Source: Thermaerobacter marianensis DSM 12885
Lineage (GTDB): Bacteria > Bacillota > Sulfobacillia > Thermaerobacterales > Thermaerobacteraceae
Reading direction: 5' to 3'
DNA length: 64,000 nucleotides
NCBI RefSeq assembly: GCF_000184705.1
Contig: NC_014831.1
Coordinates: 2,480,001 to 2,544,000, forward strand
The notes under the pieces were generated by a model. The model was not told where the DNA came from, did not search any database, and saw only the letters and a program-made list of their open reading frames with translations. This document shows positions 8,013 through 11,284 of this stretch, one piece after another. Position 1 is the first letter of the stretch; every line of letters starts with the position of its first letter. The position numbers were made by a program, and so were the translations under genes.

Positions 8013-8924
8013 ATGGACGCCTTGGAAGTGGGCATCCTCGGGGTCCCCATGGACCTGGGCAGCAGCCGCCGGGGGACCGACATGGGCCCCAGTGCCATCC
8101 GCTACGCCCGCCTGACCGAGGTGCTGCGCCAGGTCGGCCACCAGGTGCGGGACTTTGGCAACCTGGACGTGCCGGTCGCCGAGAGCCTGGACGCGGGCAA
8201 CCCGCGCCTCAAGCACATCGAGGCCATCGAGCCCGTTTGGCGGGTGCTGGCCGACCGCGTGGCGCGCCTGGCCGGGGAGAGGCGCGTGCCGCTGGTGCTG
8301 GGAGGGGACCACAGCCTGGCCGTGGGCTCCATCGGCGGGCTCCTGGCCGCCGGTTGGGACGACCTCGGCGTCCTGTGGTTCGATGCGCACGCCGACTTCA
8401 ACGACACGGCCACCACACCGTCGGGGAACGTGCACGGCATGCCGGTGGCGTGCATCGTCGGGCAAGGCAGCGCTGAACTCCTGGCCCACACCCGCTGGCT
8501 CCCCCGGTACCTGCCCGCGGAGCGCCTGGTGATGATCGGCCTGCGCGACGTGGATCCCGGCGAGCGGGAGAAACTGCGGGAAAGCGGCATCATGACCTAT
8601 ACCATGCAACAGATCGACGAGCTGGGCATCGCCGAGGTGACCCGCCGCGCGCTGCAGTACCTGCACGGCCGCGGCGCCCGCCGGCTGTACGTCAGCTTCG
8701 ACATGGACGTGGTCGACCCCGATGTGGCGCCGGGCGTCGGTACGCCGGTGGTGGGCGGGCTGACCTACCGCGAGTCCCACCTGGCCATGGAGATCGTGGC
8801 GGAGTCCGGGCTGCTGGCCGGCATGGAAGTGGTCGAAGTCAACCCCATCCGCGACGTGCTCAACCGCACGGCGGAGGTGGCGGTGGCCCTCGTCGCCTCG
8901 GCCTTCGGCAAGCGCATCCTATGA
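8013..8924 (+). CDS. rocF: arginase
   Basis: 303 aa ureohydrolase that splits L-arginine into ornithine and urea using a binuclear Mn centre in the cytoplasm. Metal-ligand motifs are intact: GGDHS (near residue 97), DAHADFND (near 124) and [10 protein letters not shown] (near 230); the substrate loop SGNVHGMP and the C-terminal EVNP are also present. The ATG at 8013 abuts its AAAGGGG Shine-Dalgarno, so the TTG at 8022 may be the true start. No other arginine catabolic gene is adjacent. Confidence 0.95.
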
Positions 8925-8958: not shown

Positions 8959-9132
8959 CGCCAGGACGGCGGGGACGTGCTAAAGTATAGCTAGTGTGGA
9001 CAGGCTTGCCGGCCGAAGAGCGCCGCGGGACGCTGGCGGGGCAGGGTGGCGCAGGGCATGTCCTGCCTGCCCCCACGCCGGCCCGCGCCACCGCCGGCAG
9101 GCCCATCTGGGTGTGCCAAGGGAGGGTTTGCG

Positions 9133-9378
9133 GTGAGCGAGCGCGTCGAGGTGCGCATCGAATACTGCACCTCTTGAGGGTACCTGCCACGAGCCGCCCG
9201 TGTGGCGGAGGAAATCCTGGCAGCCTATCCGGACCGCGTGGCGTCGCTGACGCTGGTGCCCTCGTCGGGAGGCCGGTTCATCGTCACCGCCGCGGGCCGG
9301 GAGGTCTACAACAAGGCGGAGACGGGCCGGTTTCCGGAAGAGGGCGAGGTCCGCAAGCGCATGGCGGAACTCTGGTAG
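9133..9378 (+). CDS. SelW/Rdx-family selenoprotein (in-frame TGA read as Sec)
   Basis: 81 codons from GTG 9133, behind GGGAGGG seven bases upstream, to TAG 9376, with a single in-frame TGA at 9175-9177 (residue 15). The flanks read YCTSU-GYLPRAARVAEEIL, the CxxU redox motif of SelW/Rdx thioredoxin-like proteins, and the second half has the family pattern GGRFIVTAAGREVYNKAETG then GRFPEEGEV. Length matches the family. Right after the TGA, CTGCCAC (9184-9190) pairs with GTGGCGG (9202-9208), leaving an 11-base loop that begins with G, as bacterial SECIS elements require. Codon use is normal on both sides of the TGA, which argues against a pseudogene. Sec machinery genes are not in this window. 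Role: small thiol/selenol oxidoreductase with unknown partner. Confidence 0.85.
9184..9208 (+). promoter_or_regulatory. candidate bacterial SECIS hairpin
   Basis: The 7-bp stem CTGCCAC/GTGGCGG (one G-U pair) begins six bases after the TGA and closes an 11-base loop, GAGCCGCCCGT. SelB-binding hairpins in bacteria sit immediately 3' of the UGA with a G in the first two loop positions. The UGA-to-loop distance of 13 bases is slightly short. Confidence 0.55.
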
Positions 9379-9434
9379 GACGAAAGGCCGCCGGCAACCG
9401 GCAGGCTCTGGGGATGGAATGGCGAAGCGGATGC

Positions 9435-9455
9435 GGGGCCGGGAACACCGGCCCC
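9435..9455 (+). terminator. GC hairpin after the selenoprotein gene
   Basis: GGGGCCGG (9435-9442) pairs perfectly with CCGGCCCC (9448-9455) around GAACA, followed by GTCTT. It lies between the convergent selenoprotein and mutY genes. Confidence 0.5.
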
Positions 9456-9471
9456 GTCTTCGTCCTCGGCT

Positions 9472-10761
9472 TCATCGGGGAAGGGCCCGGTGCCCGGGTG
9501 GCGCCCCTCCGAACCGGGCCACCTCGGCCACCACCCGCCGGTCCAGGGAGGCCATGGCCAGCCCGTCCAGATCGGCCAGCGTCACCCAGGCGACGGCCCC
9601 ACCGCCCCACTCGGCCGGCGCCTCGGCCACGGCGGGGGCACCGCCCGGCATGCCGCCGGGCGTCCCGCTGTCGCCGTCCCGACCACCGGACGAACCCGGC
9701 CCGGGCGTTCTGCGCCCGGCGGCGCGGCCGGCCGGACGCCCGGTTTGTCGCTCGCCGCCACGCCCGTTCCACCCGGCCCCACAGCCGGCAGACGCCAGGT
9801 ACAATCGCCAGTGCCACCGCCGGTGGCTGAAGTCCCACCGGCCCTGCAGGTGCTCCCGCCGCCATTGCAGCGGCTGGCCCAGGGATGCCTCCAGGACCGC
9901 CCCCAGGCGGGCGCGTGCGGCGAGCCACGTCTCGCCCTCGGCCCGCCGCGTGTAGGGCAGCGCCCACAGGCCGCCCAGCAGCCCGCCCTCCGGTCGCCGC
10001 ACCACCGCCACCCGCCCGTCCTGGATGCACCAGGCCATGACCACGTCCTCTTCCGCCCACCGGGTGGACCGGCGGCGCACCGGCCAGGCCTCGGGCTGCC
10101 CGGATCCCGCCGCCACGCACAGGCCCGCCAGGGGGCACTGGGTGCAGACAGGCTTGCGGGGCGTGCAGACCGTGGCGCCCAGCTCCATCACCGCCTGGTT
10201 CAGGGCGCCGGGCCGCGGCCCGTCCACCAGCCGCCGGGCCAGTTCCGCGATGCGCCGGCGGCCGGCGGCGCGGTCCGCCGGTTCGTCCACGCCGAAGACG
10301 CGGGAGAGGACCCGCTGGGCGTTGCCGTCGACGGCGGGCACCGGCAGGTCGAAGGCGATGCTCAGCACGGCGCCGGCGGTGTAGTCGCCCACCCCGGGCA
10401 GGGCGCGGACGGCCTCGGGATCGGGAGGAACCTGCCCGCCGAACCGCTCCACCAGCACCCGGGCCGCCTGCTGCAGCTGGCGCGCCCGGCGGTAGTAGCC
10501 GAGCCCCTGCCAGAGGCGCAGAACCTCTTCCTCGGAAGCCGCCGCCAGGTGGAAGGCCGACGGAAAGCGCTGGAGAAACCGAAGGTAGTATGGGAGGACG
10601 GTATCGACCCGGGTCTGCTGGAGCATGACCTCCGATACCAGCACGGCGTACGGGTCCCGGGTGCGCCGCCAGGGAAGATCCCGGCGGTGCCGGTCATACC
10701 ATTCGATTAACCGGGAGCGGACCTCCTGGGGGTCCGGTCCCTGTACTGGAGCGTCGTTCAT
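9472..10761 (-). CDS. mutY: A/G-specific adenine glycosylase MutY
   Basis: 429 aa. MutY removes adenine mispaired with 8-oxoguanine. In order: helix-hairpin-helix core with LPWRRTRDPYAVLVSEVMLQQT (catalytic Glu), LPGVGDYTAGA and the catalytic Asp in AVDGNAQRVL, then the [4Fe-4S] ligands in CTPRKPVCTQCPLAGLC, then a NUDIX-like 8-oxoG domain. A Gly/Pro-rich insertion of roughly 60 residues interrupts the C-terminal domain. ATG 10761 is the assumed start; ATG 10794 has a closer AGGAG but overlaps the divergent lepB start. Confidence 0.93.
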   Translation of the reverse strand: MNDAPVQGPDPQEVRSRLIEWYDRHRRDLPWRRTRDPYAVLVSEVMLQQTRVDTVLPYYLRFLQRFPSAFHLAAASEEEVLRLWQGLGYYRRARQLQQAARVLVERFGGQVPPDPEAVRALPGVGDYTAGAVLSIAFDLPVPAVDGNAQRVLSRVFGVDEPADRAAGRRRIAELARRLVDGPRPGALNQAVMELGATVCTPRKPVCTQCPLAGLCVAAGSGQPEAWPVRRRSTRWAEEDVVMAWCIQDGRVAVVRRPEGGLLGGLWALPYTRRAEGETWLAARARLGAVLEASLGQPLQWRREHLQGRWDFSHRRWHWRLYLASAGCGAGWNGRGGERQTGRPAGRAAGRRTPGPGSSGGRDGDSGTPGGMPGGAPAVAEAPAEWGGGAVAWVTLADLDGLAMASLDRRVVAEVARFGGAPPGHRALPR

Positions 10762-10792
10762 GGTCCGATATCGCGCACTAGGAAGCGTTCTC

Positions 10793-11284
10793 ATGGAACT
10801 CCTGCAAACGCTGGTCCTATCCCTGCTGCTGGCCCTGGCGATCCGTACTTTCGTGGCCGAGTCCTTCGTGGTCCAGGGTCACTCCATGGAGCCCACCCTC
10901 CACCACGGCGAGCGGGTCCTGGTGGTGAAGCTGGGCACCCGATGGTGGGAGCCCCGGCCGGGGGACATCGTGGTGTTCCGGCCGCTCCAGCAGCCGGGCG
11001 GCGAGTACATCAAGCGGGTGGTGGCCGGCCCCGGCTCCACCGTGGCCCTGGAGGACGGCCGCGTGATCCGGGACGGCACCGTCCTGGAGGAGCCGTACGT
11101 GGTCTACGGCGACACGTCGGACCTGCCGCCCGTCACGGTACCGCCGGGGACCGTGTTCGTCCTGGGGGATAACCGGCCCAGCAGCTACGACAGCCGCTCC
11201 TTCGGCCCCGTGCCGGTGGAGCGGCTGGACGGCCGGGCGGTACTGGTCTTCTGGCCCCCCTGGCGAATGCGGTGGCTGCGCTGA
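10793..11284 (+). CDS. lepB: signal peptidase I
   Basis: 163 aa, type I leader peptidase with one N-terminal membrane anchor (residues 3-22). The Ser/Lys dyad is visible: QGHSMEPT (Ser31) and GEYIKRVVA (Lys74), followed by the conserved GDNRPSSYDSR box. It cleaves signal peptides outside the membrane. An alternative ATG at 10760 adds 11 residues. The gene is divergent from mutY with starts about 30 bp apart or overlapping. Confidence 0.95.
   Translation: MELLQTLVLSLLLALAIRTFVAESFVVQGHSMEPTLHHGERVLVVKLGTRWWEPRPGDIVVFRPLQQPGGEYIKRVVAGPGSTVALEDGRVIRDGTVLEEPYVVYGDTSDLPPVTVPPGTVFVLGDNRPSSYDSRSFGPVPVERLDGRAVLVFWPPWRMRWLR

Follow-up and report, generated by a model that had tools for sequence, protein, structure and literature searches.

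Thermaerobacter marianensis carries a short reading frame that is broken by one in-frame TGA, which raises the question of whether the TGA encodes selenocysteine, records a mutation, or ends a short peptide. We address this question in a 64,000-nucleotide stretch of the genome (NC_014831.1, positions 2,480,001 to 2,544,000; hereafter the window), to which all coordinates refer unless marked as genome coordinates. The initial annotation had interpreted the frame as a SelW-type selenoprotein, and our analysis supports this interpretation. The gene almost certainly encodes a SelW/Rdx selenoprotein, in which a hairpin likely recruits SelB and Sec-tRNA, the UGA is most likely read as selenocysteine, and the product is probably a CxxU redox protein. 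The features of the locus and the genes of the selenocysteine machinery are listed in Table 1.

Table 1 Features of the selW locus (window coordinates) and selenocysteine machinery genes (genome coordinates)
Feature	Position	Strand	Basis or detail
selW-type gene, 81 codons + TAG, TGA as putative selenocysteine	9133..9378	+	Family matches, dN/dS
Shine-Dalgarno-like GGGAGGG	9120..9126	+	6 nt upstream of GTG start
CxxU redox motif (probable), TGC ACC TCT TGA (C12-T-S-U15)	9166..9177	+	Alignment of homologues
In-frame TGA (putative selenocysteine codon)	9175..9177	+	TGA at same place in 29 aligned homologues
SECIS hairpin core	9194..9208	+	5-bp stem 9194-9198/9204-9208, 5-nt loop CGUGU
tRNA-Sec	genome 395728-395820		82.8 bits; anticodon TCA (UCA) by ARAGORN
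SelA	genome 1380267-1381631	minus	572 bits
SelB	genome 1497516-1499441	minus	352 bits for joined pieces vs 242 cut-off
SelD	genome 961929-962864	plus	400 bits

Reading frame and family of the product

Read from the sequence, the frame extends from GTG 9133 to TAG 9376-9378 on the plus strand with TGA 9175-9177 as its sole internal stop, at the coordinates initially annotated. The coding span (9133-9375) corresponds to an Rdx/SelW protein of 81 residues, with the UGA at codon 15. With selenocysteine at the TGA, the product reads VSERVEVRIEYCTSUGYLPRAARVAEEILAAYPDRVASLTLVPSSGGRFIVTAAGREVYNKAETGRFPEEGEVRKRMAELW. The good Shine-Dalgarno sequence claimed for the gene is present ahead of the GTG. 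In the relatives L024 and L025, purine-rich sites likewise lie upstream of the equivalent start, and the ATG or GTG starts of the congeners align with GTG 9133. Same-frame upstream starts, for example ATG 9058-9060, were dropped because similarity to the relatives starts at GTG 9133. Scanning the region for promoters and terminators reveals none, and a phage search gives no match.

Two longer open frames overlap the gene (8994-9830, plus strand; 9284-10138, minus strand). We set them aside as by-products of the high G+C content because the Rdx match spanning the TGA and the third-position-dominated changes fit the selenoprotein frame; both overlapping frames were judged via that frame. Translations inspected by eye place an arginase-like frame (8013-8924, plus strand) and a MutY-like frame (9472-10794, minus strand) on the two sides of the gene, and short motifs suggest a comparable arrangement of neighbours in some relatives. 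Elsewhere in the window, a CRISPR array (12-1108) with at least 17 repeats (GTTTGTAGAGTGCCTATGAGGAATCGAAAC) at a spacing of 65-71 bases reaches the left end, and one of its repeats is labelled CRISPR-DR2 by Rfam.

The translated frame matches Pfam Rdx (PF10262) over residues 6-77 with E = 3e-23 (82.3 bits; cut-off, 22.6), NCBIfam NF041051 (SelT/SelW/SelH) with E = 1.9e-28 (98.5 bits; cut-off, 88), and TIGR02174 with E = 1.2e-17 (63.9 bits; cut-off, 34.2). The Rdx match runs across the TGA, in agreement with the family-like sequence noted initially on either side of it. When the whole genome is searched with Rdx, the sole match is the selW locus, flagged "1 TGA". The matches to Rdx and NF041051, together with this single genome-wide Rdx place, indicate that the frame is more than a chance occurrence.

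In 22 aligned homologues, with TGA read as C, C12 and residue 15 are invariant. In the AlphaFold model (mean pLDDT 91.8), C12-T-S-U15 lies at the end of strand 5-12, ahead of helix 18-31, which is the redox-pair site of the SelW fold. Foldseek ranks solved SelW-like proteins at the top, followed by the more distant mouse SelW (2npb) and then thioredoxins; the model agrees with the solved bacterial SelW-like proteins 2obk, 2fa8, 3dex, and 2p0g at TM 0.83-0.92 and ~0.9 Å. By its family models, CxxU placement, and thioredoxin-like SelW fold, the protein is a member of the SelW family. The fold and the motif suggest a probable role for the CxxU pair in thiol/selenol redox chemistry. Earlier authors likewise infer a redox role from CXXU and call the function unclear (PMC1088965).

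Conservation of the TGA and of the downstream hairpin

The gene and its TGA are present in 5/5 genomes of the family. In a sample of 398 genomes of the phylum, Rdx matches in 31, and 28 of these have the TGA; the remaining three comprise G354 (TGC), G149 (CGA), and G177 (partial match). Two complete non-TGA forms are found (L036, TGC; L051, CGA); L036 is the single complete Cys form found in the sample. SelA is above its curated cut-off in 28/28 TGA-form genomes versus 256/398 overall, which has a hypergeometric chance of 2.5e-6 if the genomes are treated as independent, which they are not. An alignment of homologues, as proposed initially, gives the same TGA in 29 of them. The genome with the Cys form L036 (G354) has no SelA above the cut-off (best E only 5.3e-5). 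A contig search returns only a single close relative, whose contig is that of G004, and an actinobacterium with a Cys form.

Compared with three relatives, the gene shows a dN/dS of 0.07-0.17, and substitutions are constrained before as well as after the TGA. Relative to L025, the changes downstream of the TGA number 1, 4, and 22 at codon positions 1, 2, and 3, respectively.

L051 (G149; match near 1500, minus strand), a relative of the long proteins described next, has CGA (Arg) in place of TGA. Its five SECIS pairs and its loop G are nevertheless preserved, and its genome has SelA; the CGA reflects either an error in the sequence or a Sec codon lost very recently. In L049, L050, L052, L053, L054, and L055 (match near 1500), the TGA-bearing Rdx is the N-terminal part of a protein of ~270-300 residues. 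In the two members tested, L049 and L053, Rdx is followed by DUF2703 (E = 1.6e-31 and 6.7e-38, respectively). In these long proteins the TGA and a SECIS-like stem occupy the same positions as in the short ones, and in some of them one pair of the stem is mismatched. A literature search found no paper linking DUF2703 to selenoproteins.

The SECIS-like hairpin that had been claimed after the TGA is real, as judged by covariation across homologues. When the 29 homologues are aligned from the TGA, they have in common a stem of 5 bp at columns 20-24/30-34, corresponding to window positions 9194-9198/9204-9208, and a 5-nt loop N-G-N-N-U in which positions 2 (G) and 5 (U) are invariant (29/29). In the stem columns, 95.6% of the cells are paired and 16 cells are double-changed, which 0/500 shuffles reach in a control that ignores the relatedness of the sequences (5/29 are from one bacterial family). 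Shifting the partner by 1-3 columns destroys the pairing. Paired changes fall mostly at silent codon positions. In particular, where the codons on both flanks encode Ala, their silent third positions (columns 21 and 33) pair as CG, TA, GC, or AT in 26/27 sequences, a pattern not readily explained by selection on the protein. The loop G occupies the second position of an Arg, Ser, or Gly codon and is retained while the residue varies. In the Cys form L036, 2/5 pairs are broken and the conserved loop G is absent.

The bacterial SECIS model comprises a stem of 4-16 bp, a loop of 3-9 nt with a G within the first two positions, a distance of 16-37 nt from the UGA, and an MFE of at most -7.5 kcal/mol (PMC13188914). 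The hairpin fits this model, with a 5-bp core stem, a loop of 5 nt with G at position 2 (9200), and 21 nt between the TGA and the loop; the folding energy of the 50-nt stretch is about -17 kcal/mol. Single-sequence folding does not settle on one structure: stretches of 40-45 nt give a different hairpin, stretches of 50-60 nt the conserved one, and RNAalifold prefers only a shifted 3-bp stem, giving weak support for the 5-bp stem. Free-energy folding is therefore not decisive, and we chose the stem on the comparative evidence. The alternative hairpin at 40-45 nt (UGCCACG with CGUGUGGCG) was dropped because it is broken in L024, where the 5-bp stem is intact, and the 5-bp stem covaries elsewhere. 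The covariance model R1, which was built including the window sequence and serves as a specificity check only, scores 56.1 bits at the hairpin, and its next best match in the genome scores 17.4.

Selenocysteine machinery and the reading of the UGA

The genome is a single contig of 2,844,696 bases. The initial annotation implied a selenocysteine system, which the absence of sel genes would have contradicted; in accordance with it, tRNA-Sec, SelA, SelB, and SelD are all in the genome, making a complete set of machinery genes. SelD is itself a selenoprotein candidate, with a TGA in GKAG-U-GCK (L020 1531-1533; genome 961959-961961) followed by a strong hairpin. A formate dehydrogenase-like gene and a HesB-like match in the genome are both below the cut-off and have no TGA. 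A search for GrdA gives no match, and its control queries are silent too. Among these targeted searches, the selenoproteins supported by sequence in the genome are SelD and SelW. It is conceivable, and in our view rather unlikely, that this strict aerobe keeps the Sec machinery for very few proteins, perhaps little beyond SelD and SelW, with SelW as the main reason for the pathway. If selenoproteins are indeed few, the organism would be a convenient, non-pathogenic thermophile for testing the function of bacterial SelW.

We propose that the ribosome would initiate at GTG 9133 and reach the UGA at codon 15, where the hairpin at 9194-9208 most likely recruits SelB and Sec-tRNA(UCA). Selenocysteine would then be inserted, and translation would continue to UAG 9376. 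The product would adopt the SelW thioredoxin-like fold with a Cys-x-x-Sec pair as its probable thiol/selenol redox centre.

Because TGC becomes TGA by a single-base change and Cys-form Rdx proteins exist (L036 and L029), the TGA might instead have arisen by nonsense mutation, or stand in the sequence in error for TGC/TGT, and the gene would then be either a pseudogene or one for an ordinary Rdx protein. However, 28 other genomes share this TGA, four of them from the same family, which for practical purposes excludes a TGC or TGT at 9175 that resequencing would reveal. In addition, the constraint on the protein persists past the TGA and the hairpin covaries, leaving decay or error with a negligible probability. 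It is also highly improbable that the UGA is read as another residue (near-cognate decoding could give, for example, Trp or Cys) and that the stem is a codon-driven pattern only. Such a reading draws on the weak RNAalifold result and on residue 15 being assigned from sequence, but the machinery genes are all present, TGA-form SelW occurs only alongside SelA in the phylum sample, and silent third positions covary.

In bacteria, termination at UGA competes with Sec insertion. Accordingly, a 14-residue peptide ending at the UGA could be the main product by number, with Sec insertion being minor or regulated and selenium-dependent. The constraint after the UGA shows, however, that selection acts on the long product, and we regard a predominance of the short peptide as quite unlikely, although less so than the two readings above. 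The most likely reading of UGA 9175-9177 is selenocysteine.

Comparison with known SelW proteins

The selenoprotein frame corrects the gene map at a point where standard gene calling stops at the UGA. The RefSeq record may already show the gene, since NF041051 is built for such genes. A literature search found no paper on Thermaerobacter selenoproteins, the only co-mention being in a paper on protein AMPylation.

Mammalian SelW (mouse, 2npb) and MIEN1 (2ljk) have the fold family in common with the window protein, and the sequence similarity to mouse SelW is low (E = 0.002). Eukaryotic SECIS elements differ in type from bacterial ones and are located in the 3' untranslated region, whereas the hairpin of the window sits directly after the TGA. 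The Cys-form bacterial Rdx structures 2obk, 2fa8, 3dex, 2oka, and 2p0g have a near-identical predicted fold at 27-40% identity. Unlike the window gene, they are not UGA-dependent, and the alignments show Cys in the Sec position in 2obk and 2fa8.

SelW-like proteins ranked first in abundance among the selenoprotein families of the Sargasso Sea set (PMC1088965). Zhang and colleagues describe SelW-like proteins with very few Cys homologues in Sec-using organisms (PMC1794560), and the phylum sample agrees with this scarcity. Sec-form SelW is reported in Symbiobacterium thermophilum, a thermophile, and in Desulfotomaculum reducens, Alkaliphilus, and Geobacter (PMC1794560). T. marianensis is described as a strict aerobe with a growth optimum of 75 C (PMC3035304), and with it an extreme thermophile from deep-sea mud joins the organisms with a SelW selenoprotein. 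The window gene shares with the bacterial SelW-like family (PF10262; TIGR02174; NF041051) the family match, the CxxU motif, the position of the TGA, and a SECIS directly downstream. Bacterial SelW selenoproteins have been known since about 2005; the Thermaerobacter gene adds a member, and the organism is its only difference from those already described.
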